A stretch of DNA of 64,000 bases. It comes from Xiphophorus maculatus (taxonomy: Eukaryota > Chordata > Actinopteri > Cyprinodontiformes > Poeciliidae). Below the pieces are notes generated by a model. It made no database searches and was not told the origin of the DNA. It saw only the letters and a program-made list of their open reading frames with translations. The DNA is taken from NCBI RefSeq assembly GCF_002775205.1, contig NC_036461.1:10267015-10331014 (forward strand), in the 5' to 3' direction. Position numbers and translations under genes: made by a program. Within the stretch, counting starts at the first letter, position 1, and the number at the start of each line of letters is the position of its first letter. Of this stretch, positions 7,202-52,100 are shown in pieces.

Positions 7202-7364
<163 letters not shown>

Positions 7365-14100: not shown

Positions 14101-14606
14101 TAGTTAATGCTTGACCAAATGAACCTTTAGCAGCAAAATGGTTGAATTGTATGTTTCGATTGTAAACACCAGTTCAGGCATTAAAACAACATAAATTATT
14201 TATGGTTGTTAATTAAATTAAACAATTACTTTTGATAACTTCCAGATTGCATAGCTTTTTACATGACAGACATGAAACACTCAACGGTCAAAATGGAAGG
14301 AAATGGAAACTGTGGATCATAACTAATTTGCATGTCACTTTTAAAACATACTACAGTTTATAACAAACAAGTCTGTAACAAAACAGACCCTCTGTTAAAA
14401 GTTTTCCACTCTGTCATCATGTTTATTTGCATGTTAAATAATACAAAAGGATAATGACGCCACAGAAGATGTGTTGTGGTAGTGATGAACTATTCAGACT
14501 CAATATGTGTCATACAACAGAAGCAACCGCAAACTGAGGTGCATTTAAAAATTACATATATTTTCAATTTGTGATTTAACTTCATGCTCCTGCTCATTTT
14601 TTTAAA

Positions 14607-23600: not shown

Positions 23601-24927
23601 GAACCACTGCTTTAGGGCTTAGCTTTACCTCCTGCTTGAAACCAATTATCAGACACCAGTGGTAATACTGACAAAATAAGCTATTCTAATTTAAAAGCAC
23701 ACATTTCTATGCAGTTTTTAAGCTATTTTTGACTTGTTTTCCTGTTGAGTAATTATGTTTTCCTGTTTGAAACCAGTCAGGTACTGAGAAGATCAGCTCC
23801 TCCGACTTAAAAACCCTGACCCAAATCACAAAAGCTGGCTGTGGTATATCCTTGTTCTTCCTGGGTGTGGCTCTCTTCATGCATTTTCTGACAAGGTAAA
23901 AATATAAAGAGGTCTGCTTTTGATTTGAATACTCCTCCTATGATATGTGTGTGTTTTACCACAAACCAATATGCCTTACAGGAAAACTAAAGCCAGCCAA
24001 GCCATAAAGATCCTCATGAATCTTTTCATAGCCCTTTTTCTCCTGAACCTTTGCTTCTTGGTAAATGAGTCAATTGCTAAACTGAAGATCTTAGCAGCAT
24101 GTGTGGCGATGGCATCAGTTCTGCACTACAGTATGCTGGCCACATTCACATGGTTTTTCATGCAGGCTTTGCATTTGTACTTCTACGTGTTCAGAATCCC
24201 TACAGACACCAAATATTACATGTACAAGATTAGCATCACAGGATGGGGTAAGAGAAATACACACAAAACTTTAATTGGTTTGTCTGTAGATTATTATAAC
24301 TAAAAGACATATGGTTCAGTTATTCCAGTTGTGGTGGTTGTCGGACTTCTTGCTTCAAGCAAATATGGTTACATTGACATTTCTGATGACAATGGAACAT
24401 CAGTAACTATGTAAGTAAATATTTCAAATACATTAGATTTTATGTCTGATTATTGTGTGACAAAATAATTGCTTTTCTTTCATAACTTCCAGGTGCTGGA
24501 TTCCTGATTCTACAATCTACTTAGGTGTAAACATAGGTTATTATGGCATTGTGTTCATCTTCACTTTACCTATATTTGTGGTAACTATAGTGCAGATCAA
24601 ACAGTTTGTACCTAAAGAAGCAAAAGCCCAGGAATCTACCAAGAAAAGGTTGTTCTCTCTTCTTGGTCTTTTCTGCCTTTTGGGCATCACCTGGGGATTC
24701 GCTTTTTTTAGCTACGGCCCTCTGCTCCTTCCCTCCTACTACATCTTCACCATCCTTAACTCCTTTCAAGGTAGGCCTAAAAGTGACATTTTAGGCTAAA
24801 TGCCTAGGAAGTAACAGAAACAAAATAACCAATGCATTCTGTGCTTGTAGGATTCTTCCTGTTTGTTTACTACTACTTCTCCAGCAAGGATCCTTCCAGA
24901 GGACAGCAAGCAAACCAAGAGCAGTAA
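14607..24927 (+). CDS. Adhesion GPCR gene 2 (ADGRG-like) with three tandem GAIN/GPS domains, 29 exons, 1119 aa
   Basis: Exons: 14607-14706, 14806-14886, 15025-15093, 15191-15361, 15488-15523, 15598-15669, 15769-15919, 16045-16207, 16297-16428, 16516-16626, 16732-16771, 18157-18257, 18355-18452, 18599-18746, 18843-18977, 19099-19206, 19420-19468, 20664-20761, 20852-20973, 21102-21258, 21346-21471, 21544-21654, 21750-21798, 22724-22824, 23777-23895, 23982-24247, 24320-24410, 24493-24770, 24851-24927; they sum to 3360 nt in one open frame. Order: signal peptide, N-terminal Cys-containing region (to about residue 227), GAIN1 (227-409, GPS H401-Q402-A403, not a cleavage motif), GAIN2 (410-621, H613-L614-T615), GAIN3 (662-843, H835-L836-T837), then 7TM (from about 850). 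The two inter-GAIN linkers are single exons. TM3 Cys, CWIPD and LNSFQGFFLF are present. The C-terminal tail is frameshifted relative to genes 1 and 3 and stops early at NQEQ. It could instead be two truncated genes plus one intact gene, but unbroken phases and the absence of internal signal exons favour one transcript. Confidence 0.88.
16045..18257 (+). other. GAIN cassette 1 of gene 2 (exons 8-12), degenerate GPS
   Basis: Five exons encode the first GAIN/GPS. Typical GAIN landmarks appear in order: [61 protein letters not shown], then W, C and [13 protein letters not shown]. All four GPS cysteines are kept, but the cleavage triplet is H-Q-A rather than H-L/I-S/T, so autoproteolysis is predicted to fail. 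The intron before the GPS exon (16772-18156) is long and holds repeat-like sequence. Confidence 0.85.
16772..18156. other. Large intron of gene 2 with probable repeat insertions
   Basis: Introns at the same position in genes 1 and 3 are 400 and 890 bp; this one is 1.4 kb. It includes a LINE/SINE-like tail (GAAGTGCTTTGGGG near 16940), a GC-richer block at 17310-17640, a 10-base inverted repeat with a 2-base spacer (17620-17641, arms ACATGCCCTT/AAGGGCATGT), and a short-unit repeat of AATAATATGAAAG (about 17785-17840). An LTR fragment is possible for 17310-17640, but no paired ends were found. Confidence 0.35.
18355..20761 (+). other. GAIN cassette 2 of gene 2 (exons 13-18), cleavable GPS
   Basis: A linker exon (18355-18452, ending PLNPAQAV) and five GAIN exons repeat the gene 1 GAIN pattern: [84 protein letters not shown]. 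The H-L-T triplet is intact. The first GAIN exon has lost the donor used by its homologues (GT became TT after GATGTAAAT) and appears to use a GT six bases upstream (18747), dropping two residues without changing phase. Confidence 0.85.
20852..22824 (+). other. GAIN cassette 3 of gene 2 (exons 19-24), cleavable GPS next to the 7TM
   Basis: The linker exon (20852-20973) encodes a Lys/Glu-rich stretch ([15 protein letters not shown]) ending NPLNSDEAA. The GAIN exons have the same lengths as in gene 1 for most positions (157, 111, 49 and 101 nt). Motifs include [57 protein letters not shown] and [13 protein letters not shown]. This is the membrane-proximal GAIN, so its Stachel sequence is the one positioned to act on the 7TM. 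Confidence 0.88.
23127..23617. mobile_element. hAT-type non-autonomous element with 8-bp target duplication
   Basis: The element occupies 23135-23609. Its ends are inverted repeats, CAGTGGTTCTCAAA at the left and, at the right, the near-complement TTTGAGAACCACTG. It is flanked by a perfect 8-base duplication CTTTAGGG at 23127-23134 and 23610-23617. Eight-base duplications and CAG-GGTTCTCAAA ends are typical of hAT transposons. It sits inside the intron between the GPS exon and the TM1 exon of gene 2 and carries no transposase frame. Confidence 0.9.
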
Positions 24928-25299
24928 CCTTGCCACACAGAATGTGTACACATCTCCTTATGGATAAGTTACACGTTATTTCCTCCCTTTCTCCTATTTA
25001 CTTTCACCAAAAATAACTTTCATTTACCTATGTTCAATAACTACAGAGAGCTGACAACTTGGACAGTACATGTATTTAATCATATTCCCAAATGAACTTC
25101 TAAGTCTTTGCTTGTGTAGCTTTATTACCAAGGCGCCATTTTAATGTCTGATATAAGAGACACCATGTTTCGGAAGTTGTACAGACATCAGAGGACAGCG
25201 TTTCATTTCTGAGGTTGCTAAAATGGTCTAAAGAGTTTTCTCTCTCTGTCTGACTCTTTACAAAAAGTGAAAATAGCAACTGTTTCCTGTAATGCAGTT

Positions 25300-29290: not shown

Positions 29291-29879
29291 GAAAATGTGA
29301 TCACGCAAGGCTCAAGCTGTGGCATGGATGTGCTGAGTAGGTTTATTCTGTCAATGAAAGTTAGTAAATTCAGATCCCCTGCAGTGGGTTAAATGGATCT
29401 CTAACAAGTGGATTTGTTAGAGATTCATTACTTTTAATTAAATGTGTAAGGTAGATGGCATTATCATATAAATGAAACAAAAAATGCCATCTATGTGCTA
29501 GAAAAATACATGTTTGACTTGTATTACTCATCACATCGTTTTTTAGAAAACAGCATTTTTTGGCAGTCCAATCTTTATATTCAAATCTTAAAATATGTTT
29601 GTGCCCTACAGAGACGGGGGTTCTGTCAGATTCTTAGATCAGCAGAATAAATGATGAATGGGTAATGCAATTATATTTATTGCCAGTGCAAGGATGTGAA
29701 CAATGCTTTTATTTTAATATAAAAATAAGGCCACCTATTAAAGCCCAAGGATAGAAAGATTGGAGGGCAATTCAAGCTTAATCAATTTAGAGACCACTTC
29801 CATAAAATGTACATGTTTGTAGTAAGAAAAAAGAGCTTATACAAACTTCTCTTGCGGTACGACAACTTCCAAAGTATTC

Positions 29880-30592
29880 ATGGCATGGTTGGCTTTAATA
29901 TAAAGTCGGCCTTCTATCACCTGAAGAACATTTCCAGGATTAAAGGACTAATGTCTCAGCCAGATCTAGAGAAACTCATCCATGCGTTCATCTTCAGTCG
30001 TATTGATTATTGCAACAGCGTCATCACAGGTCTGTCCAACAAATCAATCAAACAGCTGCAGCTGATCCAGAATGCTGCTGCTCGCGTTCTCACTAAAACC
30101 AGGAAGATAGAGCACATAACACCAGTTTTAAAGTCCCTCCACTGGCTCCCTGTAGCTCAAAGAAAAGACTTTAAAAAACTGTTGTTAGTTTATAAATCAC
30201 TGAATGGCTTAGCACCACAATACATTCCAGAACCTTCCAGACCTCTCAGGTCTTCCGGTTCTGGTCTGCTCTGCATCCCCAGAACCAGAACCAAACAAGG
30301 AGAAGCAGCTTTCAGCATCTATGCACCACAAATTTGGAACAAACTTCCAGAAAACTGTAAAACAGCTGAAACACTGACTTCTTTTAAATCTCAACTGAAA
30401 ACCCACCTGTTTAGAATTGTATTTGAAATGTAATAAATTACAAATTTATTGATGTAACATGACTTAATGATTCTTTCTATATTGCATTGTGATTCTGTGT
30501 TTGTAATGATGTAAAGCACTTTGAAATGTCTTGCTGCTGAAATGTGCTATACAAATAAAATTTGATTGATTGATTGATTGATTGATATATGC
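29880..30592 (+). mobile_element. 5'-truncated L2-type LINE
   Basis: An open frame reaching 30433 encodes the C-terminal part of an L2-type reverse transcriptase: HAFIFSRIDYCNSVITGL, LQLIQNAAARVLTKTRK, HITPVLKSLHWLPV, FKKLLLVYKSLNGLAP and SFKSQLKTHLF. The 3' end has GTAAAGCACTTTGAAAT and TGCTATACAAATAAA followed by about five TTGA repeats (30573-30592), the usual L2 tail. The 5' half is missing, as expected of incomplete target-primed insertion. Confidence 0.9.
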
Positions 30593-31166: not shown

Positions 31167-34100
31167 ATGACAGAGTTGGCTGTAAACACTCGATGGATAT
31201 TTGCTGTTGTGAAACTTTCTCTACTTTATGCAACTTTGCTCCAGGACCATTTTTGTGAAGCTTTATGTAAGTAATAAAAGTTGAATTGAGATCATATAAT
31301 TCTTTACATTTACAATTATTTTCTTTCAACAAATACTTTTTAATTAGTTTTGGTACTATGTTTTTAAGTGTTGTTTCTTTGCAGGCACCAAGACAGGAAC
31401 CAGGATGAAAAACATACTGTTTATTTCTCCTCAAAATATTACGTTCAATACTACTTTTCCAACAGGTGAGCTTGGATTTACAGTGACAATAGTGTTTACA
31501 AGAACAGTTACAGTGAAAAACCAAATTAAATGTTTTGCATTTGGTATTTTTCTATATTGCAGATGCTGTCTATATAAATGAGAATGGAAATAGGCTGTGT
31601 TTCAACCTCCAGCAAAATAATGCAGGTGCAGTAGCCAAATATTATTATTTTCTTCAATGTGATCATGAATGTATCCATCTTCTTAAATAAGTGTTTGTGT
31701 CTGTCCATGTTGTTGAATGTCTTCATGAATTGAGATAACGTTTTTTGAGAACTAGTTGATGCTGTTTTTTACAGTGCCAACTTTGATTTTAGGAACTGGA
31801 GATTGCTTGTCCCCTTGCATTAAACTAAACTCTAGTGTCATCAGCCCGGCTTTAATACAGTACAATAATACAAGTTGAGAAGCTGTAGATATGTATTTGT
31901 ATATATCAGAATGTTGTGGTGGCGAGTTATCAACTTGAGCCAATCCTAATAAACCTAATTTAGTTTCTGGTCAGCAATTAGCAGGCACAGCATTGCTGAC
32001 AGATATGTTATTGTATTTTCAGGTTGTTGCTTAAGTAAAGATTTCGACTGCAGTCCCAAAATAAGTTTGGCTGGTGATTGTTACAGACTAACGCTGAGTG
32101 AAGCAGCATTACGCAACCAAGATGTTGTTGTGTTACAGAATCCAACATATAATTTTTCATGTATGCCATCAACGTTCTACAACTCAAAAGGTACTGTTTA
32201 TGAAGTTCTTTTTGAACTAAAGCAGGGAGAGTGTCCCTTGAAAATAATTACATGTCTTTGCTGTTTTCAATGTCAATGTTCTCTCTTTATGCAAAGGGTC
32301 TTTCTTATACTTTGTTTCAGGTTTAATGCTGAACATTCACAACTGCTTAAAAATGGGTAAAGTCACGAACACAGATTTGGCACAAACAATGCCTGAAGTA
32401 TCCATACCCCTTGAACTATCAAAAATGTTTATGTTACCACCATGAACCTTTTCTATCTTACAAATCTTGCAAATTAAAATTGTATTTTACTGAGATTTTG
32501 AGTGGTAAGCAACAGGAAGTATACCACTGGAATAAAGTGATGCGGTTTTCAATTTTATTTAAACAAAAATTTAAAAGTCTGCTTTGACTGCAATTATAGT
32601 GAAAAAAATTGCATTCTGGATTTTGATCAGTATATTCCTACATATGAATATGATCGGACCTTGATTCCATGTTTAGGGCTGTTGTTCTGCTGAAAGGTGA
32701 ACCTCTGTCCCAGAGGTTGCATTCTTACCACAAATTTAAGAATGCATTCTTAAAGTCGCATTCTTACCACAACTTTACAGATTAGAATACTTTACAGATG
32801 GTTGCATTGTTTTCCTCAATAAAAGAACTTAAATATTTTTGAATCCTGGTCTCCCTGCACTTTTGCTATTGTTAAAATCTTCATTTTTTTATCTGTGCCA
32901 TACTATATCTTCACATGACATAACATCGCTGAACAATGCTCTGTGAGATTTTCAAAGTCTGAGGTTCTATTTTAGACTTAATAATGCTTTTAAACTTCTC
33001 TGCTACTTTTACTTTGACCTGTCTATCTGCTTTGTTCTATGGTCTCTGAGAAGAAGTTTGTCCATCAGCATTTTTGTCTTTCTGAGGCCTACACATAACA
33101 ATTGGATTTATGCTAAGATACATGGGTGGACACTTTTTACTAATTAGGTAAAGGCATTTGAATTGTACAGGACTTTATTTAAGAATATTATAGTGAAGGG
33201 GGATTCATGTGCAAACAGCACTTTGGATCTCATTATTTATCAAGTTTATAAACCACACATCATTTTTGTCCACTTTAACAACCCAGTAAACTACATTTGG
33301 GTCTGAAGAGAGAGAATTTTCAAGGGGTATGAAGACTTATATGCAAGGCACTTTCTCTTCATGTACATTTGCATGCAAAGTTACTTTACATATATTTTGT
33401 AAAGTTTATAACTTTATTTTTTCTTGCATTTTAAGGTGGACTGACCATTAGACTTGGCCTGGATCAGCTGTTTGGAAATTCAACATCTGAGAAACTGATA
33501 TGTGAAGGTATTTCATATCAGTGCCTTTGAAGAATTTTCTAGTAAGCCTTTGATAAATGTTTACTAGAAACATTTATTAATGTTTTCATATAAATAGATA
33601 CATGGCCAAAATTCAGGATCAAATCTTGTCGAAACAACAAGGAAACTACTACTGCATCCTGGAGCACCATAAGCAATTTGGTTTCTCTAACAACTAATGT
33701 GGTAAGATGACCTTGGTCATTTTTATTTCTAGAAGACAACTAGTATTTCACACATAAAATTATTTTTAAAAATAAGTATAAAACATTTTTTATACTCTAG
33801 AGTCCAGACATTACCACCTACAAACAATAGCACTTCATCAGGAATTGCACAACCGGAAAGTTCTAACACAACCTCAAATTTCAGCACCTCAAGCAGTTCA
33901 GTTTCTCAAACAAGTGATATGGAAAGATTTTGATCATTTTTATTATTGAAAGAACTAGTATTTCACACATCAAAGTATAACTATAGAAAAACTTTTATAC
34001 TTAGATATTACCACCTACAAACAATAGCACTTCATCAGGGACTGCACAACCAGAAAGTGCTAACACAACCTCAAATTTCAGCACCTCAAGCAGTTCAGTT

Positions 34101-37100
34101 TCTCAAATCAGTGATATGGTAAGATTCTGATCATTTTTATTTTTGAAAGAACTAATATTTCACGGATCAAAAACAAATACAATATGGTAGGGGTGCATGG
34201 TATAACTGTATTAACATCAGCATTGACTGATATTAGTTATTTTTAAACATAGTGGTACAAAACTGGAACAATATCAACAACTGATATTCATTTCCAACTT
34301 GTTTCCATATGTTTCTGGAATGGAGGAGGTTAGTTATGTGGTATTCCTTTGGTCAAGTGATAGTGATGGAGCGAAGGATTGTGGAAAGTTAAGCTGAAGT
34401 AGAGAACAATGGTGAGGTAAACATTGTGGTCGTGTTTTCAAGGTGTCGAAATGGTGTAAAATACACATAATACTGTATGTCTAATATCAATAAATATTAA
34501 TTATCAGCAATACCAACAATAGTTGTATCGAATATTGGCTCAAATTCTTATATTGATGCATTCCTACAATATTTTATAGCCAATCATCTACGACAACTGC
34601 ATTTCATCAGGAACTACAGGACAAAATAGTTTGTTTACAACCTATACTTTTATTTTATTTTTAAGTTATTTGGTACATCAACCTCTGTCATTTTAATATT
34701 GAGAAAAATTACTAAAATTTCACAAATTAAGTTTAAATACAATTTTTATGAACGAGGCTTCCGAAACTACAAATGACAGCTATCCATCAGGGAACGCGGA
34801 GACAGAAAGTTTATTTGCAAGAACAACTTTCAGGCACTTGAGCAGATATTTTTCTCGAACAGGTAATTTATTTAGGCTGATCTCTGAAATTGTTATGTTT
34901 GGAAGATACAGGTAATAATTAACCAATGAAAAAGATGAATATGATCTTCTATACACTAGACATTGCCACCTAAAGACAACAGCACTTCAACAGGGACTGT
35001 ACAGACAGAAAGACCACAAACAACCCTAAATGTCAGCAATTCAAACAGATCTGTTTTTCCAACAAGAAATTTGGTAAGTTAGCCTCTGTAATTTTTATTT
35101 TTGAAAGAAAATACTTCACACATCAAAACTAAATACAATCTTTTATGAACTAGGCTTTCATTCATACAAACAACACCACGTGATCAGGGAGTTCAACCCA
35201 TAAGACTTTGTTTACAATTTCAAATTTCAGCAACTCAACAATTTCTGTTTCTTAAAAGACTTCTTGCAAAGTCTTACAAAAATTGTAAGACTTTGTTTAC
35301 AATTTCAAATTTCAGCAACTCAACAATTTCTGTTTCTTAAAAAACCTATATGGTAAGATGATGTCAAGAATTGTAATGTTTTCAAAGACAATTAATGATT
35401 CACAGATGAAAAATGTAATTTTTTTTATAAAGTAGACATCACCACAATTAAATGATAGCATTTAATGAGAAACAACACAGAAATAGTTTGTTTACAACCT
35501 CCAATTTCACTGTGTCAAGAAGTTCCATGTCTAATAAATATTTGGTAAGGTGATTTCTATTTTATGTTGAAAACTAAGAAATATTACACACATCAAAATC
35601 AATAACTCGTTTTATACACTAGACATCATCACCTACAAAAAACAGCATTTCAATGGGGACTGCACAGTCAGAAGGTCAAGAAACAAGCCCCAATATCAGC
35701 AACTTAAGCAGTTCTTTTGCACAAACAACTCACTTGGTAAGTTGACCTCTGTAATTCTTATTTTTGAAAGACAATCAACAAAATAAATAAGAAATGTGAT
35801 CTCTGATGAACTAGACTTCCAAAAGTACAAGCAACAGCACTTTTCCAAGAACAACAGACAATGACAGTTGGCTTAGAACCTCGAATTTAAACTCATCAAG
35901 CAGCTCAGTTTATCAAAAAAGTTATTTGGTAAGGTCATATGTGTACTATTCATGTTTGCTGGACAACTAAAGTTTCACATTACAAATTTAAACAATCTTT
36001 TCTGAACTAGACGTCAGAACCTGCAAATGAAAGCACTTCATCAGGTGCAACAGACCAAGAAACTTTGTTTACAACCCCAAAATTCAACACCTCCAGCAGT
36101 TCCGATTCTCAAACAAGTAATGAGGTATAAGAATCTATGTAACTCTTATTTTGAAAGACAATTAATACTTCACAAATCAATTGTAAACATACTCTTTTAT
36201 GAACCAGGCTTCAAAACTGTCAGAAAACATCACTTCATCAGACACTTCAGACCACAATGGTTTGTCTACAAGCCCAACTTACAGTAGCTCTAGCAGTTCT
36301 GGTCTTCAAACAGGTTATTTGGTAAGGCGATTTCCATATTTTCCTTGTTTGGTACACAATTAGTAATTCATAAACTTGAAAATACAATCTTCTTTAAACA
36401 GGCTTCAGAAAGTACAAACAGCATCAATTCATCAGGGAATATAGATAAAAATGGTTTGTCTACAAGCGGGACTTTCAACAGCTCCAGTAGTTCTGTTTCT
36501 CAAACAATTCACTGGGTAAAGTAGTTTTTGTACTTTTCATGTTTGGTAGATAACTAATGTTTCACACATGAAAAATTTAAATAATCTATTATGAACTAGA
36601 CATTGCCACCTGAAAGCACTTCAACAACTGCAACAGACCAAGATGGTTTTACAGGCCAAAATATCAGCACCTCCATCAAATCCGCTTCTCCAACAAGTAA
36701 TGAGGTAAATTGATCTCTATGATTTTTATTTCTGAAAGACAATAATTCACACATCAAACTGAGGTTGCTCTTTTATGAACAAGGCTTCCAATCGTACAAA
36801 TGACACCACATCATCGGTGAGTGCAAGTCAAAATACTTTGCTTACAACTTCAAACTCAAACAGTTATGCTTCTCATAAGTTATTTTGATAAGATGATATG
36901 TGCAATTGTTTTTCATCAAAAACAATTATTGTTTCAATAATAAAAACTTACTTTAATCTTTTATGACCTAGATGTCACCACCTTCAAATGAAAGCACTTC
37001 ATTAGAAACAACAAATACAGATCATTTGTTCACAACCTCCAATTTCAGTGACTCAACAAGTTCTGTGTCACAAAAATATTTGGTAAGGTGATTTCTATTT

Positions 37101-40100
37101 TATGTTGAAAACTAAGAAATATGACACACGTCAAAATCAATAACTCGTTTTATACACTAGACATCATCACCTACAAAAAACAGCATTTCAATGGGGATTG
37201 CACAGTCAAAAGGTCAAGAAACAAGCCCCAATATCAGCAACTTAAGCAGTTCTTTTGCACAAACAACTCACTTGGTAAGTTGACCTCTGTAATTCTTATT
37301 TTTGAAAGACAATCAACAAAATAAATAATAAATGTGATCTCTGATGAACTAGACTTCCAAAAGTACAAGCAACAGCACTTTTCCAAGAACAACAGACAAT
37401 GACAGTTGGCTTAGAACCTCGAATTTAAACTCATCAAGCAGCTCAGTTTATCAAAAAAGTTATTTGGTAAGGTCATATGTGTACTATTCATGTTTGCTGG
37501 ACAACCAAAGTATCAAATTACAAATTTAAACAATCTTTTCTGAACTAGACGTCACAACCTACAAATGAAAGCACTTCATCAGGTGCAACAGACCAAGAAA
37601 CTTTGTTTACAACCCCAAAATTCAACACCTCCAGCAGTTCCGATTCTCAAACAAGTAATGAGGTATAAGAATCTATGTAACTCTTATTTTGAAAGACAAT
37701 TAATACTTCACAAATCAATTGTAAACATACTCTTTTATGAACCAGGCTTCAAAACTGTCAGAAAACATAACTTCATCAGACACTTCAGACCGCAATGGTT
37801 TGTCTACAAGCCCAACTTACAGTAGCTCAAGCAGTTCTGGTCTTCAAACAGGTTATTTGGTAAGGCGATTTCCATATTTTCCTTGTTTGGTACACAATTA
37901 GTAATTCAGAAACTTGAAAATACAATCTTTTGTGAACTAGGCTTCAGAAAGTACAAACAGCATCAATTCATCAGGGAATATAGACCACAATGGTTTGTCT
38001 ACAAGCCCGACTTTCAACAGCTCCAGTAGTTCTGCTTCTCAAACAATTCACTTGGTAAAGTTGTTTTTCTACTTTTCATGTTTGGTAAATAACTAATGTT
38101 TCACACATGAAAAATTTAAATAATCTATTATGAACTAGACATTGCCACCTGAAAGCACTTCAACAACTGCAACAAACCAAGATGGTTTTACAGGCCAAAA
38201 TATCAGCACCTCCATCAAATCCGCTTCTCCAACAAGTAATGAGGTAAATTGATCTCTATGATTTTTATTTCTGAAAGACAATAATTCACACATCAAACTG
38301 AGGTTGCTCTTTTATGAACAAGGCTTCCAATCGTACAAATGACACCACATCATCGGTGAGTGCAAGTCAAAATACTTTGCTTACAACTTCAAACTCAAAC
38401 AGTTATGCTTCTCATAAGTTATTTTGATAAGATGGTATGTGCAATTGTTTTTCTTCAAAAACAATTATTGTTTCAATAATAAAAACTTACTTTAATCTTT
38501 TATGACCTAGACGTCACCACCTTCAAATGAAAGCACTTCATCAGGAACAACAAATGCAGATCATTTGTTCACAACCTCCAATTTCAGTGACTCAACAAGT
38601 TCTGTGTCACAAAAATATTTGGTAAGGTGATTTCTAGTTAATGTTGAAAACTAAGAAATATTACACACATCAAAATTAATAATTCGTTTTATACACTAGA
38701 CATCATCACCTACAAACAACAACATTTCAATGGGGATTGCACAGTCAGAAGGTCAAGAAACAAGCCCCAATATCAGCAACTTAAGCAGTTCTTTTGCACA
38801 AACAACTCACTTGGTAAGTTGACCTCTGTAATTCTTATTTTTGAAAGACAATCAACAAAATAAATAATAAATGTGATCTCTGATGAACTAGACTTCCAAA
38901 AGTACAAGCAACAGCACTTTTCCAAGAACAACAGACAATGACAGTGGGCTTACAACCTCGAATTTAAACTCATCAAGCAGCTCAGTTTATCAAAAAAGTT
39001 ATTTGGTAAGGTCATATGTGTACTATTCATGTTTGCTGGACAACTAAAGTTTCACATTACAAATTTAAACAATCTTTTCTGAACTAGACGTCAGAACCTG
39101 CAAATGAAAGCACTTCATCAGGTGCAACAGACCAAGAAACTTTGTTTACAACCCCAAAATTCAACACCTCCAGCAGTTCCGATTCTCAAACAAGTAATGA
39201 GGTATAAGAATCTATGTAACTCTTATTTTGAAAGACAATTAATACTTCACAAATCAATTGTAAACACACTCTTTTATGAACCAGGCTTCAAAAATGTCAG
39301 AAAACATCACTTCATCAGACACTTCAGACCACAATGGTTTGTCTACAAGCCCAACTTTCAGTAGCTCAAGCAGTTCTGGTCTTCAAACAGGTTATTTGGT
39401 AAGGCGATTTCCATATTTTCCTTGTTTGGTACACAATTAGTAATTCAGAAACTTGAAAATACAATCTTTTGTGAACTAGGCTTCAGAAAGTACAAACAGC
39501 ATCAATTCATCAGGGAATATAGACCACAATGGTTTGTCTACAAGCCCGACTTTCAACAGCTCCAGTAGTTCTGTTTCTCAAACAATTCACTTGGTAAAGT
39601 TGTTTTTCTACTTTTCATGTTTGGTAAATAACTAATGTTTCACACATGAAAAATTTAAATAATCTATTATGAACTAGACATTGCCACCTGAAAGCACTTC
39701 AACAACTGCAACAAACCAAGATGGTTTTACAGGCCAAAATATCAGCACCTCCATCAAATCCGCTTCTCCAACAAGTAATGAGGTAAATTGATCTCTATGA
39801 TTTTTATTTCTGAAAGACAATAATTCACACATCAAACTGAGGTTGCTCTTTTATGAACAAGGCTTCCAATCGTACAAATGACACCACATCATCGGTGAGT
39901 GCAAGTCAAAATACTTTGCTTACAACTTCAAACTCAAACAGTTATGCTTCTCATAAGTTATTTTGATAAGATGGTATGTGCAATTGTTTTTCTTCAAAAA
40001 CAATTATTGTTTCAATAATAAAAACTTACTTTAATCTTTTATGACCTAGACGTCACCACCTTCAAATGAAAGCACTTCATCAGGAACAACAAATGCAGAT

Positions 40101-43100
40101 CATTTGTTCACAACCTCCAATTTCAGTGACTCAACAAGTTCTGTGTCACAAAAATATTTGGTAAGGTGATTTCTAGTTAATGTTGAAAACTAAGAAATAT
40201 TACACACATCAAAATTAATAATTCGTTTTATACACTAGACATCATCACCTACAAACAACAACATTTCAATGGGGATTGCACAGTCAGAAGGTCAAGAAAC
40301 AAGCCCCAATATCAGCAACTTAAGCAGTTCTTTTGCACAAACAACTCACTTGGTAAGTTGACCTCTGTAATTCTTATTTTTGAAAGACAATCAACAAAAT
40401 AAATAATAAATGTGATCTCTGATGAACTAGACTTCCAAAAGTACAAGCAACAGCACTTTTCCAAGAACAACAGACAATGACAGTTGGCTTACAACCTCGA
40501 ATTTAAACTCATCAAGCAGCTCAGTTTATCAAAAACGTTATTTGGTAAGGTCATATGTGTACTATTCATGTTTGCTGGACAACTAAAGTTTCACATTACA
40601 AATTTAAACAATCTTTTCTGAACTAGACGTCAGAACCTGCAAATGAAAGCACTTCATCAGGTGCAACAGACCAAGAAACTTTGTTTACAACCCCAAAATT
40701 CAACACCTCCAGCAGTTCCGATTCTCAAACAAGTAATGAGGTATAAGAATCTATGTAACTCTTATTTTGAAAGACAATTAATACTTCACAAATCAATTGT
40801 AAACATACTCTTTTATGAACCAGGCCTCAAAAATCTCAAAAAACATCACTTCATCAGACACTTCAGACCACAATGGTTTGTCTACAAGCCCAACTTTCAG
40901 TAGCTCAAGCAGTTCTGGTCTTCAAACAGGTTATTTGGTAAGGCGATTTCCATATTTTCCTTGTTTGGTGCACAATTAGTAATTCATAAAATTGAAAATA
41001 CAATCTATTGTGAACTAGGCTTCAGAAAGTACAAACAGCATCAATTCATCAGGGAATATAGACCACAATGGTTTGTCTACAAGCCCGACTTTCAACAGCT
41101 CCAGTAGTTCTGTTTCTCAAACAAGTCACTTGGTAAAGTTGTTTTTCTACTTTTCATGTTTGGTAAATAACTAATGTTTCACACATGAAAAATTTAAATA
41201 ATCTATTATGAACTAGACATTGCCACCTGAAAGCACTTCAACAACTGCAACAAACCAAGATGGTTTTACAGGCCAAAATATCAGCACCTCCATCAAATCT
41301 GCTTCTCCAACAAGTAATGAGGTAAATTGATCTCTATGATTTTTATTTCTGAAAGACAATAATTCACACATCAAACTGAGGTTGCTCTTTTATGAACAAG
41401 GCTTCCAATCGTACAAATGACACCACATCATCGGTGAGTGCAAGTCAAAATACTTTGCTTACAACTTCAAACTCAAACAGTTATGCTTCTCATAAGTTAT
41501 TTTGATAAGATGATATGTGCAATTGTTTTACTTCAAAAACAATTATTGTTTCAATAATAAAAACTTACTCTAATCTTTTATGACCTAGACGTCACCACCT
41601 TCAAATGAAAGCACTTCATCAGGAACAACAAATGCAGATCATTTGTTCACAACCTCCAATTTCAGTGACTCAACAAGTTCTGTGTCACAAAAATATTTGG
41701 TAAGGTGATTTCTAGTTAATGTTGAAAACTAAGAAATATTACACACATCAAAATTAATAATTCGTTTTATACACTAGACATCATCACCTACAAACAACAA
41801 CATTTCAATGGGGATTGCACAGTCAGAAGGTCAAGAAACAAGCCCCAATATCAGCAACTTAAGCAGTTCTTTTGCACAAACAACTCACTTGGTAAGTTGA
41901 CCTCTGTAATTCTTATTTTTGAAAGACAATCAACAAAATAAATAATAAATGTGACCTCTGATGAACTAGGCTTCCAAAAGTACAAGCAACAGCACTTTTC
42001 CAAGAACAACAGACAATGACAGTTGGCTTACAACCTCGAATTTAAACTCATCAAGCAGCTCAGTTTATCAAAAAAGTTATTTGGTAAGGTCATATGTGTA
42101 CTATTCATGTTTGCTGGACAACTAAAGTTTCACATTACAAATTTAAACAATCTTTTCTGAACTAGACGTCAGAACCTGCAAATGAAAGCACTTCATCAGG
42201 TGCAACAGACCAAGAAACTTTGTTTACAACCCCAAAATTCAACACCTCCAGCAGTTCCGATTCTCAAACAAGTAATGAGGTATAAGAATCTATGTAACTC
42301 TTATTTTGAAAGACAATTAATACTTCACAAATCAATTGTAAACATACTCTTTTATGAACCAGGCCTCAAAAATCTCAAAAAACATCACTTCATCAGACAC
42401 TTCAGACCACAATGGTTTGTCTACAAGCCCAACTTTCAGTAGCTCAAGCAGTTCTGGTCTTCAAACAGGTTATTTGGTAAGGCGATTTCCATATTTTCCT
42501 TGTTTGGTGCACAATTAGTAATTCATAAAATTGAAAATACAATCTATTGTGAACTAGGCTTCAGAAAGTACAAACAGCATCAATTCATCAGGGAATATAG
42601 ACCACAATGGTTTGTCTACAAGCGGGACTTTCAACAGCTCCAGTAGTTCTGTTTCTCAAACAAGTCACTTGGTAAAGTTGTTTTTCTACTTTTCATGTTT
42701 GGTAAATAACTAATGTTTCACACATGAAAAATTTAAATAATCTATTATGAACTAGACATTGCCACCTGAAAGCACTTCAACAACTGCAACAAACCAAGAT
42801 GGTTTTACAGGCCAAAATATCAGCACCTCCATCAAATCCGCTTCTCCAACAAGTAATGAGGTAAATTGATCTCTATGATTTTTGTTTCTGAAAGACAATA
42901 ATTCACACATCAAACTGAGGTTGCTCTTTTATGAACAAGGCTTCCAATCGTACAAATGACACCACATCATCGGTGAGTGCAAGTCAAAATACTTTGCTTA
43001 CAACTTCAAACTCAAACAGTTATGCTTCTCATAAGTTATTTTGATAAGATGATATGTGCAATTGTTTTACTTCAAAAACAATTATTGTTTCAATAATAAA

Positions 43101-46100
43101 AACTTACTCTAATCTTTTATGACCTAGACGTCACCACCTTCAAATGAAAGCACTTCATCAGGAACAACAAATGCAGATCATTTGTTCACAACCTCCAATT
43201 TCAGTGACTCAACAAGTTCTGTGTCACAAAAATATTTGGTAAGGTGATTTCTAGTTAATGTTGAAAACTAAGAAATATTACACACATCAAAATTAATAAT
43301 TCGTTTTATACACTAGACATCATCACCTACAAACAACAACATTTCAATGGGGATTGCACAGTCAGAAGGTCAAGAAACAAGCCCCAATATCAGCAACTTA
43401 AGCAGTTCTTTTGCACAAACAACTCACTTGGTAAGTTGACCTCTGTAATTCTTATTTTTGAAAGACAATCAACAAAATAAATAAGAAATGTGATCTCTGA
43501 TGAACTAGGCTTCCAAAAGTACAAGCAACAGCACTTTTCCAAGAACAACAGACAATGACAGTTGGCTTACAACCTCGAATTTAAACTCATCAAGCAGCTC
43601 AGTTTATCAAAAAAGTTATTTGGTAAGGTCATTTGTGTACTATTCATGTTTGCTGGACAACTAAAGTTTCACATTACAAATTTAAACAATCTTTTCTGAA
43701 CTAGACGTCAGAACCTGCAAATGAAAGCACTTCATCAGGTGCAACAGACCAAGAAACTTTGTTTACAACCCCAAAATTCAACACCTCCAGCAGTTCCGAT
43801 TCTCAAACAAGTAATGAGGTATAAGAATCTATGTAACTCTTATTTTGAAAGACAATTAATACTTCACAAATCAATTGTAAACATACTCTTTTATGAACCA
43901 GGCCTCAAAAATCTCAAAAAACATCACTTCATCAGACACTTCAGACCACAATGGTTTGTCTACAAGCCCAACTTTCAGTAGCTCAAGCAGTTCTGGTCTT
44001 CAAACAGGTTATTTGGTAAGGCGATTTCCATATTTTCCTTGTTTGGTGCACAATTAGTAATTCATAAAATTGAAAATACAATCTATTGTGAACTAGGCTT
44101 CAGAAAGTACAAACAGCATCAATTCATCAGGGAATATAGACCACAATGGTTTGTCTACAAGCGGGACTTTCAACAGCTCCAGTAGTTCTGTTTCTCAAAC
44201 AAGTCACTTGGTAAAGTTGTTTTTCTACTTTTCATGTTTGGTAAATAACTAATGTTTCACACATGAAAAATTTAAATAATCTATTATGAACTAGACATTG
44301 CCACCTGAAAGCACTTCAACAACTGCAACAAACCAAGATGGTTTTACAGGCCAAAATATCAGCACCTCCAAAAAATCCGCTTCTCCAACAAGTAATGAGG
44401 TAAATTGATCTCTATGATTTTTATTTCTGAAAGACAATAATTCACACATCAAACTGAGGTTGCTCTTTTATGAACAAGGCTTCCAATCGTACAAATGACA
44501 CCACATCATCGGTGAGTGCAAGTCAAAATACTTTGCTTACAACTTCAAACTCAAACAGTTATGCTTCTCATAAGTTATTTTGATAAGATGATATGTGCAA
44601 TTGTTTTTCTTCAAAAACAATTATTGTTTCAATAATAAAAACTTACTTTAATCTTTTATGACCTAGACGTCACCACCTTCAAATGAAAGCACTTCATCAG
44701 GAACAACAAATGCAGATCATTTGTTCACAACCTCCAATTTCAGTGACTCAACAAGTTCTGTGTCACAAAAATATTTGGTAAGGTGATTTCTAGTTAATGT
44801 TGAAAACTAAGAAATATTACACACATCAAAATTAATAATTCGTTTTATACACTAGACATCATCACCTACAAACAACAACATTTCAATGGGGATTGCACAG
44901 TCAGAAGGTCAAGAAACAAGCCCCAATATCAGCAACTTAAGCAGTTCTTTTGCACAAACAACTCACTTGGTAAGTTTGCCTCTGTAATTCTTATTTTTGA
45001 ACAACAATCAACAAAATAAATAATAAATATGACCTCTGATGAACTAGGCTTCCAAAAGTACAAGCAACAGCACTTTTCCCAGAACAACAGACAATGACAG
45101 TTGGCTTACAACCTCGCATTTAAACTCATCAAGCAGCTCAGTTTATCAAAAAAGTTATTTGGTAAGATCATGTGTGAACTATTCATGTTTGCTGGACAAC
45201 TGTAATTTCTTTGTAAAGAAATAACTGACATATTATACATATAAATACATTTGTTTGAAACTAGCCCTCTCAACCTGCAACATTGGCGACTACAACATCA
45301 AGCCCAACTTCTGGTTTGGTAAGATGACATCTGTCATGTCTCTGTAAATAAATAACTGACATATTCCAGATATAAAAACATTTATTTCAAACTAGCCCTC
45401 ACAACCTGCAACATCGGGGACTACAACATCAAGACCAACTTCTGCTTTGGTAAGATGATATCTGTAATTTCTTTGTAAACAAATAACTGACATATTACAC
45501 ATATAAAAACCTTTGTGTCAAACTAGCCCTCTCAACCTGCAACATTGGCGACTACAACATCAAGCCCAACTTCTGGTTTGGTAAGATGACATCTGTCATG
45601 TCTCTGTAAATAAATAACTGACATATTACAGATATAAAAACATTTGTTTCAAACTAGCCCTCTCAACCTGCAACATCGGGGACTACAACATCAAGCCCAA
45701 CTTCTGCTTTGGTAAGATGACATCTGTCATTTCTTTGTAAATAAATAACTGACATATTACCATACCATACCATACCATACCAACTTTATTTATAAAGCAC
45801 TTTAAAACAACCACAGCTGATACAAAGTGCTGTACATCAAAACACAACATAACAATAAAAAAAACATAAAATAAAAACTTACAGTTTAAAAACAAAAACA
45901 AAAAAAAAAAAAACATACAATTTAAAACTAGATCCCGCTAGAGTTAAAAGCCAAATAAAATAGATGGGTTTTAAGACGAGCTTTAAAAGTGGACAGTGAA
46001 GGGGCCTCCCTGACCTGCAAAGGCAAGTTGTTCCATAATTTGGGGCCCATGACAGAGAAAGCCCTGTCCCCTCTGAGCTTCCTTCTTGATCTCGGTACCT

Positions 46101-49100
46101 CCAAAAGCAGCTGATCTGCGGACCTAAGAGACCGATAAGGTATGTATGGGTGAAGAAGCTCAGAGAGGTAAGCCGGGGCAAGATTATGTAGTGATTTAAA
46201 AACAAACATAAGAATTTTAAAATGAATTCTAAAATATACCGGCAGCCAGTGAAGTGAGGCCAGGACAGGGGTCACGTGTTCCCTCTTTCGAGTTCCTGTC
46301 AGCAGTCGTGCAGCAGCATTCTGTACTAGCTGCAGACGTGAGAGCAGCGACTGACTAACTCCCAGATAAAGTGCGTTACAGTAATCCAATCGAGTTGAAA
46401 TAAAAGCATGGATCACTGTTTCAAAATGCTGCCTGGAAAGAAAAGATTTCACTGACGCCAATCGCCTTAAATGATAAAAGCTGGACTTAACCACGGCTCT
46501 GATTTGGCTATCCAATTTAAAATCACTGTCCACCTTAAAACCAAGATCTGTAATAACAGGTTTAAAATAAACCTCCAAGGGTCCCAGGTCAACAGAGGAG
46601 GACTCACAGGAGCCACTGGGTCCAAACACCATCACCTCTGTTTTGTTTTCATTAAAATTTAAAAAGTTCAAGGCCAACCAAGCTTTAATATCACCTAGAC
46701 ATGCCAGGAGATGTTTGATAGAATGTACATCCTTTTGCTTCAGGGGCAAATAAATCTGACAATCATCAGCGTAACAATGAAACGAAATCCCATGTTTCCT
46801 GAGGACAGAACCCAGAGGCAGTAAATAAAGAGAGAAAAGCAGTGGGCCCAGAATGGAGCCCTGTGGGACGCCATAAGGCATTGAAGCAGTAGATGATTCA
46901 GAGTCACCAATCTTGACCGAGATTGTTCTCTCCTCCAGGTAAGACCTGAACCATTTAAGAACAGTGCCACCAATACCTACAACGTGGTTTAATCGTGATA
47001 TTAAAATGTCGTGGTCTACTGTATCAAAGGCAGCAGTTAGGTCAAGTAAAATCAGAACAACATGGTTACCAGAACCACATGAAAGAAGGATGTCATTAAA
47101 AACTCTTATTAAAGCAGATTCTGTGCTATGAAGAGTTTTAAAACCTGACTGGAAAACCTCCAGAATGCCATTGTAATCTAAAAACTGTTTCAGCTGACAG
47201 TACACAAGTTTTTCTAAAACCTTAGAAAGAAAAGGCAGCTTCGAAATAGGCCGATAATTAGCCAGAACAGTTTGATCAAGGCCAGGTTTTTTAAGCAGTG
47301 GTTGCACTACTGCATGTTTAAAACTAGCAGGGACCACACCTGATGACAGACTGCTATTTATAATTGCAAGAACAGGCTGCCCTATGCTAGATAAGATATC
47401 TTTAAAAAATCGTGGAGGGACAGGATCACGAGGGGAGCCTGATGGCTTAATATGGCCAACCGCGTCCTCTAAAAGTGCGACAGTCACAGGCACAAACTGA
47501 TCGAAAGCAGCCGAGCGAGGGACCAAAACAGAGGGGTCAGAGTCAGGAGCTGTGATAAGAGCCCTGGTACTACCAACCTTTTCAATAAAAAAATGCAGAA
47601 AATCATCACACACATCAGGAGAAGCTGAAGAAAGGCAGTAGAGAACTGAGTGGCAGTGGAAGGGTTAATAATCCGACAGCGCCGAGCAGCAGCGCGAGTT
47701 TTAACTGCAATTGGTGTCAAACTGACATTGAATAAAACAGGCAGGTGATCCGAGAACACGGAGTCACAGATTTCCAGGTTAGTCACAGGCAGACCACAGG
47801 AAATGACCAGGTCCAGTGTGTGTCCGTGCTCATGTGTTGGGCTGGATACAGCCTGCACCAAATTAAAAGAGTCCAGAAGGCTTAAAAAGTCCTTCACCAG
47901 AGGTTTATCAGGACAACACACGTGTATATTGAAGTCTCCAACAATAAGAACATGTTCATAGTTAGTTATAATCCCAGATAAAAAGTCAGAGAAATCGTTT
48001 ATAAAATCCTTATTATATTTGGGGGGCCGGTAGACGACAGCACAGAAAACTGGGTTTACGTGTCTCATCTCAAATGCCGTAAACTCAAAGCTGGGGAAAG
48101 ACGTCTGTAGAAAACACTGCTTACATCTGTAGTCCTGTTTGTAAACAGTCGCTGTGCCTCCCCCTCTTCCCGAAGCCCGTGGTGAATTAAAATAAGAACA
48201 GTCCGCTGGTAAAAGCTCAGATAGAGCACTGGACTCACCAACACTCAACCACGTCTCAGTCACGCACAGGAAATCCAGGTCTTGGTGACTAAAAAAGTCC
48301 CGAAGAATAAAAGTTTTATTCCCAAGCGATCTGGCGTTTACCAGACCAATCCTGACAGGAACTGGATCATGGGCTTCGACAAGCCGGGAAACCCGACACA
48401 GCGGTCTCAGGTTTTGGAGACACTGTCGGCGCATGTTGAGCCGGGAAAGGCAAGGGCGGCGGTGCAGTGGGGCCTCAACGCCGACCACGGGCACCAAGCA
48501 GACATCAACGGGATCCAAGAAACGCCGAGGCACCCGAGAGCCTAAAAATGATCCATACGATGATCGGGTAAAAGGAGAGCAGTGCGTCAGATAAAATTTC
48601 AGCTTCACCAGCCGGCCGCTTCGTCTACCACGACGACGTCTCCTCCGTGGAAGCAGCGCAGGAACCCGGAACAGGTGACTCGGAATCTCCGACAAAAGCG
48701 GGGGCAGGGATTGTTGGCCAGCAACATCAAATAACATCATATCCTGGACCAAAGGTTGGAGGTCTAGTAGTGTGTTGCGATCATACACCAGCAGAGACTC
48801 AGTTTCGTAAATGACACAGGTCAGAAACAGTACCAACATGATCAAACGAGAGAATGACAGACACGCAGCCATACACACCGGCGCCATCTTGTCCTCCACG
48901 CTACGAGCTATGACACTATATATTACACAAATAAATTGTAATTTTTATATTACACAAATAAAAAACCTTTGTTTTAAACTAGCCCTCTCAACCTGCAACA
49001 TCGGGGACTACAACATCAAGCCTAACTTCTGCTTTTTTAAGTGGATTTCTATAATTTCTTTTCAAAGAAATAACTGACATATTGCACATATAAAAACCTT

Positions 49101-52100
49101 TGTTTTAAACTAGCTCTCTCAACCTGCAACATCGGGGACTACAACATCAAGCCTAACTTCTGCTTTGGTAAGTGGATTTCTATAATTTCTTTTCAAAGAA
49201 ATAACTGACATATAACACATATAAAAACCTTTGTTTTACACTAGCCCTCTCAACCTGCAACATCGGGGACTACAACATCAAGCCTAACTTCTGCTTTGGT
49301 AAGTGGATTTCTATAATTTCTTTTCAAAGAAATAACTGACATATAACACATATAAAAACCTTTGTTTTAAACTAGCCCTCTCAACCTGCAACATCGGGGA
49401 CTACAACATCACGCCTAACTTCTGCTTTGGTAAGTGGATTTCTATAATTTCTTTTCAAAGAAATAACTGACATATAACACATATAAAAACCTTTGTGTCA
49501 AACTAGCCCTCTCAACCTGCAACATCGGGGACTACGACATCAAGCCCAACTTCTGCTTTGGTAAGATGGCATCTGTAATTTCTTTGTAAAGAAATAACTG
49601 ACATATTACATATATAAAAAACATTTGTTTCAAACTAGCCCTCTCAACCTGCAACATCGGGGACTACAACATCAAGCCTAACTTCTGCTTTGGTAAGTGG
49701 ATTTCTATAATTTCTTTTCAAAGAAATAACTGACATATAACACATATAAAAACCTTTGTGTCAAACTAGCCCTCTCAACCTGCAACATCGGGGACTACGA
49801 CATCAAGCCCAACTTCTGCTTTGGTAAGATGGCATCTGTAATTTCTTTGTAAAGAAATAACTGACATATTACATATATAAAAAACATTTGTTTCAAACTA
49901 GCCCTCTCAACCTGCAACATCGGGGACTACAACATCAAGCCTAACTTCTGCTTTGGTAAGTGGATTTCTATAATTTCTTTTCAAAGAAATAACTGACATA
50001 TTACACAAATAAAAAACATTTGTTTCAAACTAGCCCTCTCAACCTGCAACATCGGGGACTACAACATCAAGCCCAACTTCTGCTTTGGTAAGATGACATC
50101 TATAATTTCTTTTCAAAGAAATAACTGACATATAACACATATAAAAACCTTTGTTTTAAACTAGCCCTCTCAACCTGCAACATCGGGGACTACGACATCA
50201 AGCCCAACTTCTGCTTTGGTAAGATGACATCTGTCATGTCTCTGTAAATAAATAACTGACATATTACACATATAAAAACCTTTGTGTCAAACTAGCCCTC
50301 TCAACCTGCAACATCAGGGACTACAACTTCAAGCCCAACTTCTGCTTTGGTAAGATGACTTCTGTCTTTTCTCTTCAAATAAATAACTGACATATTTTAC
50401 GTATAAAAACCTTTGTGTCAAACTAGCCCTCTCAACCTGCAACATCGGGTACTACAACATCAATCCCAATTTATGCTTTGGTAAGATCACTTCTGTAATT
50501 CTTTGTAAAGAAATAACTGACATATTGCACATATAAAAATCTTTGTTTCAAACTAGCCCTCACAACCTGCAACATCGGGGACTACAACATCAAGCCTAAC
50601 TTCTGCTTTGGTAAGTGGATTTCTATAATTTCTTTTCAAAGAAATAACTGACATATTACACAAATAAAAAACATTTGTTTCAAACTAGCCCTCTCAACCT
50701 GCAACATCGGGGACTACAACATCAAGCCCAACTTCTGCTTTGGTAAGATGACATCTGTCATGTCTCTGTAAATAAATAACTGACATATTACACATATAAA
50801 AACCTTTGTGTCAAACTAGCCCTCTCAACCTGCAACATCGGGGACTACAACTTCAAGCCCAACTTCTGCTTTGGTAAGATGACTTCTGTCTTTTCTCTTC
50901 AAATAAATAACTGACATATTTTACGTATAAAAACCTTTGTGTCAAACTAGCCCTCTCAACCTGCAACATCGGGTACTACAACATCAATCCCAATTTATGC
51001 TTTGGTAAGATCACTTCTGTAATTCTTTGTAAAGAAATAACTGACATATTGCACATATAAAAATCTTTGTTTCAAACTAGCCCTCACAACCTGCAACATC
51101 GGGCACTACAACATCAAGCCCAACTACTGCTGCATCAAGCACTACCACTTCTTCAACACCTCTGTCCAGTATGTCGCTAGATAATAACCCGAACTTTAGT
51201 TCTAAGGAACAGAATCAAACTGAGAATGCTGAGAATGCAGCGTAAGTATATCTGTCAATAAATTCTATGACCTAAGAATATCATAATCAGTAGTAGATGC
51301 TGCATTACAAGGAGTGTTAAATTGTCAGGACATATAATTATGTTTTGATGAAAATCTCATTTTATGTTACAGAAATACCATGAGTAAAATTAATATTATT
51401 GCGGAGTTAATGGGCAATAGGACCACAGCAAGAATCACAATTGGTAAAATTCAAGGAGTGTTTGCTAAACTGACACAACAAAATCAGAATAACAAGAACT
51501 TTGTCTTCGCATCAAATGGAGATGTAAAGGTACACAGCCTTATTTATACAAGAAAAAAAAACACATCATCAGCCATGATACAGTACACATGTATTTGTAA
51601 TAATCTGTTTGTTATAGATTTTATCAGAAAGCAACAATTTGGCGACAGACTACACTCTATCAGTTCATCTTCCAAAAGAAGCCAGTGAAATGGCCGTAAA
51701 GAAAAATGGCTCCTATATTGGAATTTTGCTTTTTCCAGAAATTCCTAAGGTAAAACAAAGGATCAGCTATTTAAATAAAATAGCTGAGATAACTGCTGGT
51801 TCCCTTAGAACCAGCAGTTTTTTCATCAGTCCATTCATAACAGTGTTTTACACTTAACAGATCAACGCAACAAGTTATTTTTTTAATAATCAAATCCTGG
51901 GGATTGAGATGGGAGTGAACATATTTAACCTTTCAGAGACCATCAATATTCAGTTCAGTAACGTGAATACGGTAAGAGATGCTAAACACTTTCAGAATAA
52001 CCTTTTGTTGGACACAATAAGAGTTCAGATATTTCTTCGTCTGTTCCACTACAGACTGGACGGAGTGTTTCTTGCGTTTCATGGGATGGGAGAAGTAACC

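Follow-up and report, generated by a model that had tools for sequence, protein, structure and literature searches.

A stretch of 64,000 nucleotides from the platyfish Xiphophorus maculatus (contig NC_036461.1, positions 10,267,015 to 10,331,014 of the forward strand; below, the window) contains a true higher-order repeat (HOR) made of predicted exons. Six blocks of about 1539 bp, each with eight diverged exons, stand in tandem in a gene that reads as an adhesion G protein-coupled receptor (GPCR) of the ADGRG type. This repeat is called array 1; a second array of shorter exons, array 2, adjoins it downstream. It is likely that the stalk of this one receptor is read from both arrays of phase 0-0, Ser/Thr-rich mini-exons, which would have arisen by duplication, divergence, and exchange of blocks.

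Array 1 spans positions 35623-45161, from the start of exon A1 to the end of exon B7, which is exactly the interval given by an earlier sequence-only reading of this DNA. Its exons were listed as open segments between an AG and a donor-like GT. The copies of exon A start at 35623, 37161, 38700, 40239, 41778, 43317, and 44856, with a spacing of 1538 bp once and 1539 bp five times. Six full units follow the same fixed order A-H, and then exons A and B occur once more; the earlier claim of six eight-exon units in fixed order at this spacing is therefore confirmed. Each 1539-bp repeat has eight monomers of about 195 bp, with one exon each. There are 50 exons in total (seven A, seven B, and six each of C-H), with lengths of 114 bp (A-E), 105 bp (F), 33 bp (G), and 111 bp (H). 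All of them are phase 0-0, open, bounded by AG and GT, and Ser/Thr-rich.

Autocorrelation over the array showed identities of 0.92 at a lag of 1539, 0.90 at 3078, and 0.87 at 4617. Identity was also raised to 0.37-0.46 at the one-less lags (1538, 3077, 4616, and 6155), because unit 1 is 1538 bp long, owing to a single-base gap in one of its introns. Apart from the multiples of 1539 and these neighbours, no lag between 10 and 6499 gave an identity above 0.36. A scan of one cyclic unit for open AG..GT segments of 102-117 bp, a range that excludes the shorter type G, gave seven exon-like segments, against a mean of 0.38 and a maximum of 4 in 1000 first-order Markov sequences generated from one unit. 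The units are 97.1-99.6% identical (0.45-2.9% apart), while identity between exon types is about 65% (an average distance of about 35%). In PMC9584774, HOR are delimited by monomers diverged by 20-40% and copies diverged by less than 5%, and array 1 falls within both thresholds. Its interior is homogenised and its edges are divergent, as in satellite-type HOR, so the satellite-like organisation first proposed holds for types and units alike. Within the window, a blastn search with one array unit gave no significant match outside the receptor gene; pieces of the unit matched positions 33601-35540, just upstream of the array, at 64-86% identity.

The differences between the units are graded along the array. 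Pairwise, the units differ at 7-43 positions. Units 4-6 differ from one another at 7-11 positions, and from these three unit 3 differs at 15-18, unit 2 at 27-30, and unit 1 at 40-43. Private variants in units 1-6 number 24, 9, 2, 2, 2, and 3, respectively. The partial A7-B7 segment differs from the other A-B segments at 7-14 positions in 306 bp, compared with 2-7 among the others. The six-unit copy number is most improbably an assembly artefact: the array is long, and its copies are so alike that short reads could not resolve it, but a plain duplication in the assembly would yield identical copies, and here every unit carries its own variants, the units are 7-43 positions apart, and the edges are graded. 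Among informative site pairs, 53 of 190 show all four combinations and are incompatible, which means exchange or repeated mutation. High identity ends upstream near 35540, at the end of a degenerate H exon. The downstream junction with array 2 lies inside an intron, about 40 bp beyond the end of exon B7. Unequal exchange or conversion, if it occurred repeatedly, could account for the homogenised interior, the divergent edges, and the mosaic sites. Exchange between units, as the earlier reading supposed, thus agrees with the incompatible pairs, and with the 5' unit and the 3' partial unit being the most diverged.

The array is part of an 89-exon gene model (31167-54402), which gives an uninterrupted protein of 2,870 residues with GT-AG borders in all 88 introns and agreeing phases. 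The exons comprise 7 N-terminal exons, 2 older mini-exons, the 50 exons of array 1, 19 mini-exons of 54 bp, and 11 C-terminal exons. Residues 1-182 match residues 1-183 of the paralogous protein P0001 at 46%. For the comparisons with Pfam and PDB, a core protein free of the arrays was used. The GAIN domain was assigned solely from the alignment of ADGRG2 (7xke) over core residues 331-710, and Pfam gave no separate GAIN family match for the core protein. The GPS of the model has an HLT-type motif; CQCSHLTFF is presumably the cleavage motif. The first nine PDB sequence matches were all ADGRG proteins (G6, G2, G2, G3, G2, G2, G4, G5, and G1), and the tenth was ADGRL3. By these matches, the gene reads as an adhesion GPCR that can be placed in the ADGRG subfamily, though not with one member.

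The model puts array 1 in the receptor stalk, where the earlier reading had also located it. The stalk of the model has 2,132 residues, with 47% Ser+Thr and 108 N-glycosylation sequons. The array 1 product accounts for 1,714 residues, with 46% Ser+Thr, 100 N-X-S/T sequons, and no Cys; the array 2 product has 53% Ser+Thr. Both arrays show the high Ser/Thr content of mucin-like sequences. Since each of the 71 exons that encode the model's stalk is phase 0-0, an in-register exchange would add or remove 262-273 residues without breaking the frame. The position of the 3' array junction inside an intron also agrees with the frame-neutral change of copy number that had been suggested.

Type G differs from the other types, and the units do not consist of eight equivalent exons as first described. 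Each of the other seven types has its own splice sites, as claimed; in type G, both the ancestral donor and the frame are gone. In unit 4, the place of the ancestral donor reads GATAAG, and the stretch up to there is 103 nt long and out of frame, with gaps of 9 and 2 bases relative to the sister types. None of the other five copies contains a full-length G candidate. In all six copies, the sole candidate is an exon of 33 bp that ends at a GTGAGT donor farther upstream. This in-frame TCG/GTGAGT site matches 7 of 9 donor consensus positions; an exon ending there would keep phase 0. In the Poecilia mexicana isoforms X1 and X2, G is full length (35 residues), and 23 of 34 positions are identical to the conceptual G reading. 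G was therefore probably once a normal mini-exon, which decayed in the platyfish lineage. It survives as a possible 33-bp exon, or it is skipped. The figure of about 262 residues per unit given earlier equals the sum without G, and rises to 273 if the 33-bp G is used.

Array 2 consists of 131-bp units, each with a 54-bp phase 0-0 exon (18 residues). Array 2 and the older diverged exons upstream of array 1 are parts of the same stalk that the sequence-only reading did not include. Units of array 2 flank a long interspersed nuclear element (LINE)-like insertion on both sides; this element has antisense open reading frames (ORFs) of 578 and 486 aa and makes a step of 3325 bp in the 131-bp spacing. 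The first 54-bp unit past the insertion (48983-49036, + strand) has lost its donor and reads TTTTTTAAG. It is a second case of a mini-exon whose loss can leave the reading frame intact. Units 14-16 recur as units 18-20 with 0-1 differences. Units 9 and 11 are identical, units 8 and 10 are 1 difference apart, and units 1 and 3 are 2 apart. By this pattern of repeats, array 2 likewise grew in blocks. One extra peptide of the 18-residue type was found by eye before the last stalk exon in P. formosa P0007; P. mexicana has none.

Homologues of the array exons were found in Poecilia. Nine stalk peptides were delimited by eye in predicted Poecilia proteins. Seven of them best matched one type (F twice, G, C, D twice, and E); the remaining two had no clear array type, and types A, B, and H did not occur among the nine. 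A nine-exon profile found the mini-exon in 3 of 120 homologous proteins, all from Poecilia (P0005, P0006, and P0007). The weakest accepted Poecilia exon (G) scored 7.6 bits, and the best block-shuffled control over five rounds scored 5.2 bits. A Ser/Thr look-alike stretch in Fundulus P0012 gave no profile match. The exon order F-G-C-D in P. mexicana is the cyclic order of array 1, minus H, A, and B. The F exons of isoforms X1 and X2 of this species are not the same (identity at 26 of 35 residues); in both isoforms, the next exon is one and the same G. From this order and the two distinct F exons, the ordered set of types would predate the split of Xiphophorus and Poecilia, and probably more than one cycle already existed before it. 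The near-identity of the blocks would be younger than the split.

The same isoforms bear on the possibility that the mini-exons are optional cassettes, with transcripts holding a variable subset, so that genomic copy number would not directly give stalk length. Any subset of the phase 0-0 stalk exons would stay in frame, and X1 and X2 differ in just such an exon. The array donors match the consensus at 5-7 of 9 positions, with a mean of 6.2, which is below the mean of the C-terminal exons (7.0, or 6.6 when the donorless last exon is counted). However, this mean is near that of the N-terminal exons (6.4). The isoforms themselves are database predictions, and short-read predictions of repeated exons are prone to spliced-alignment error (PMC10632439). 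Optional cassettes are considered rather unlikely.

Whether the arrays are coding can be judged from the deep comparison of types. The seven exon types other than G keep an open frame 0 at about 65% identity. The gaps among these exons are 6, 3, and 3 bp, all multiples of three, compared with two of the seven distinct intron gaps. Under simulated neutral divergence, the chance that the five 114-bp types would all be stop-free was P = 0.010 with intron base frequencies and P = 0.020 with exon frequencies. The gap and stop tests left out type G and the alignment column holding only its extra base. Type G, the one type without the ancestral donor, is also the one without the frame. These results suggest a frame constraint on the array exons over deep time. 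In the MAFFT alignment of the types, exon identity is 0.645 and intron identity is 0.641, and the difference lies in the frame-related measures only. A loose gapped pairwise alignment was uninformative (exons 0.69 and introns 0.72, against shuffles of 0.65 and 0.67), and MAFFT with gap counts was therefore used.

Several results weigh against a translated stalk of this kind. The open 89-exon frame is partly built in, because the exon borders were set by eye with the paralogues as guide, and broken exons (at the upstream edge and at 48983) were omitted. The stop simulation assumed a star tree from the majority consensus of the five types. Among the recent units, 34 of 819 exonic and 29 of 720 intronic columns are variable (Fisher P = 1). 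Of the 34 exonic changes, 28 are non-synonymous and 6 synonymous, where chance would make 25.5% of them synonymous (P = 0.33); that none is a nonsense change is not surprising (P = 0.27). Across types A-E, divergence is equal at the three codon positions. Array 2 has 15 variable columns of 54 in exons and 26 of 78 in introns (P = 0.57; counted without m4, m5, and m21, namely the LINE-cut, broken-donor, and long terminal exons). The lower pairwise distance in its 54-bp exons (0.057, against 0.125 in introns) was not used as evidence, because the variable-column numbers do not differ. X. couchianus P0003 (500 aa) is 98% identical to the array gene over 500 residues, compared with 85-87% for the Poecilia proteins; this nearest Xiphophorus orthologue among the matches listed begins downstream of the repeats. 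No Xiphophorus protein with the array was found among the matches listed (at most 8000 candidates of up to about 1,694 aa were scored per search, and in one search 120 of 137 matches were listed). A full-length Xiphophorus model may exist in the databases, since proteins longer than about 1,694 residues were outside the search.

Amino-acid level selection was rejected as evidence of function, as codon positions, synonymous and non-synonymous changes, and exon-versus-intron variation were all null. The pattern could reflect selection on frame and length with little on sequence, as expected of an unfolded glycosylated stalk; it would also fit a recently relaxed array. In another reading, array 1 would be a decaying intronic satellite of former exons, which is spliced out to leave a short stalk or none. 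The recent copies without purifying selection, the visible decay of type G and of the upstream edge exons, and the X. couchianus protein without repeats would all accord with such decay. However, types that are about 35% apart retain open frames, frame-preserving gaps, and GT-AG borders, and homologues of the exons occur in Poecilia protein models. The satellite explanation is improbable, and the translated stalk is the preferred reading.

For this stalk, the following origin is proposed. An ancestral mini-exon of about 38 codons, with an intron of about 80 bp, would have been duplicated and would have diverged into types. Exchange might then have come to act on the eight-exon block as a whole, and the blocks might have been multiplied and homogenised by unequal crossing-over or by conversion. 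The product would be an extended, glycosylated tether that links the N-terminal domain to the GAIN/seven-transmembrane (7TM) module. Copy number would set the length of this tether, which is judged the likeliest function. The features of the gene and its arrays are listed in Table 1.

Table 1. Features of the receptor gene and its exon arrays (positions in the window)
Feature	Position	Strand	Basis or remark
Exon 1, signal peptide (judged by eye), start ATG	31167-31266	+	donor GTAAGT
N-terminal exons 2-7	31385-33701	+	AG/GT borders and frame
Exons 2-7 singly	31385-31465, 31563-31625, 32023-32190, 32321-32356, 33436-33507, 33598-33701	+	
Older diverged array edge	33808-35544	+	two intact 114-bp exons, at least three degenerate
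Intact edge exons, 114 bp	34005-34118, 34960-35073	+	
Degenerate edge exons	33808-33921 (donor GAAAG), 34757-34870 (donor lost), 35433-35544 (stops)	+	
Unit 1 (1538 bp)	35623-37160	+	24 private variants
Unit 1 exons A-D	A 35623-35736, B 35815-35928, C 36011-36124, D 36208-36321	+	
Unit 1 exons E-H	E 36402-36515, F 36600-36704, G 36784-36816, H 36972-37082	+	
Unit 2 (1539 bp)	37161-38699	+	
Unit 3 (1539 bp)	38700-40238	+	
Unit 4 (1539 bp)	40239-41777	+	representative used for type comparisons
Type G exon, unit 4	41401-41433	+	33 bp, donor GTGAGT
Other G copies	36784-36816, 38323-38355, 39862-39894, 42940-42972, 44479-44511	+	
Unit 5 (1539 bp)	41778-43316	+	
Unit 6 (1539 bp)	43317-44855	+	
Partial unit	44856-45161	+	exons A7 44856-44969, B7 45048-45161
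Array 2, first block	45265-45711	+	four 54-bp phase 0-0 mini-exons, 131-bp period
LINE-like element	45758-48946	-	boundaries approximate; class assigned by eye
Array 2, second block	48983-51004	+	sixteen units: fifteen intact 54-bp mini-exons, one broken donor
Last stalk exon and GAIN-domain exons	51081-52106	+	gene model; PDB match to ADGRG2
Last stalk and GAIN exons singly	51081-51241, 51373-51529, 51618-51749, 51861-51971, 52055-52106	+	
GPS exon with CQCSHLTFF	52997-53097	+	Pfam GPS PF01825, E 1.9e-11
7TM exons and stop codon	53178-54402	+	Pfam 7tm_2 PF00002, E 1.7e-30
7TM exons singly	53178-53299, 53389-53654, 53744-53834, 53917-54197, 54284-54402	+	

The window contains at least three ADGRG-type genes. 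The upstream paralogue, gene 2 (14580-24964, + strand), has three GPS-like motifs before a single 7TM, and apparently three GAIN-GPS modules in series. It corresponds to P0004 of X. maculatus (1031 aa), and also to P0001 of X. hellerii and P0002 of Poeciliopsis; Pfam found three GPS stretches each in P0004 and P0001. The top-scoring database proteins come from poeciliid fish, and P0001 and P0002 among them are relatives of gene 2. In a tblastn comparison of P0004 with gene 2 (409 aligned residues over 10 pieces), all ten pieces are above 88% identity and seven of them are 100% identical. Of the remaining three, one apparently overruns an exon edge, one has a single mismatch, and one lies at the paralogous gene. 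A literature search for tandem or multiple GAIN domains found no paper. A further tandem paralogue (7962-11841, + strand) has one GAIN-GPS-7TM set, and pieces of X. maculatus P0011 match this first paralogue at 96.3, 97.1, 91.9, 100, and 97.6%. An (AT)n microsatellite of 77.5 copies (7206-7360) lies upstream of it. A 234-aa ORF resembling reverse transcriptase (29729-30433, + strand), situated shortly before the start of the receptor gene, is, by eye, probably a LINE remnant. RNA-family and tRNA scans of the window found nothing.

Coding HOR are already known. The NBPF/Olduvai (DUF1220) triplets are likewise a coding HOR with exons; their monomers of about 1.6 kb have two exons and are about 18% apart, and the HOR copies are about 1.6% apart (PMC9584774). 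NBPF has three two-exon monomers in a primate gene family, whereas the platyfish array has eight one-exon monomers of about 195 bp in a receptor stalk. The long homologous repeats of CR1 (CD35) show length polymorphism (PMC6121509), and CR1 grew by seven-domain blocks (PMC6883348). CR1 has four repeats of folded complement-binding SCR domains, whereas the platyfish array has six repeats of Ser/Thr-rich mini-exons. In LPA KIV-2, an exon-bearing unit occurs in 1 to about 40 copies and alters protein length (PMC11462820). This 5.6-kb unit holds two exons of one domain and is described as polymorphic, while the platyfish array has an eight-type order and is seen in one assembly. Nebulin is a muscle protein, and its exon borders fall within domains, unlike those of the platyfish array. 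Its growth was mainly in blocks of seven domains that share one exon pattern (PMC1553488). In SmPoMuc of Schistosoma mansoni, a mucin repeat on a 27-bp exon with introns occurs in up to 20 tandem copies and varies between individuals (PMC2576457). SmPoMuc is a multigene family with one exon per repeat of about 1 kb and, as reported in that paper, no centre-to-edge gradient, whereas the edges of the platyfish array diverge. ADGRG4 (GPR112) belongs to the same subfamily and has an extremely long mucin-like stalk; it was proposed as a mechanosensor, with the stalk as a spacer that passes force to the GAIN domain (PMC10687090). That paper never uses the word exon and so gives no exon-array origin, whereas the platyfish stalk is an exon HOR. 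The Xiphophorus adhesion receptor Adgre5, a melanoma modifier (PMC11797068), is a different gene. Among the papers listed in literature searches on such arrays, mostly titles and the beginnings of abstracts, no description of this array was recognised. As far as this search goes, the new feature is a mucin-like adhesion-GPCR stalk in which each block has eight monomers of one exon, beside a second mini-exon array.

All mucins are described as having one large exon of variable tandem repeats (abstract of a 2026 preprint, PMC13345508). In contrast, this mucin-like stalk is apparently pieced together from about 70 exons, each spliced separately, and homogenisation has affected coding and intronic parts alike. 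The array offers a within-gene record of an exon block turning into a unit of exchange, and might allow one to ask if the length of the stalk makes a difference in tethered-agonist receptors. Since the X. couchianus protein begins past the repeats, automated annotation may drop such stalks. At the mucin pitch of 2.5 Angstrom per residue (PMC10687090), the fully extended stalk would measure about 0.53 µm, and one block about 65-68 nm. It is tentatively proposed, as a possibility with somewhat less than even chances, that one adhesion GPCR segregates in swordtails and platyfish as a series of lengths. Unequal exchange between eight-exon blocks would alter the tether by about 65 nm per step, with no change in the ligand-side domain or the GAIN/7TM module, and the 18-residue array beside it would serve for fine adjustment. 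If true, these would be natural mechanosensor alleles differing only in tether length.

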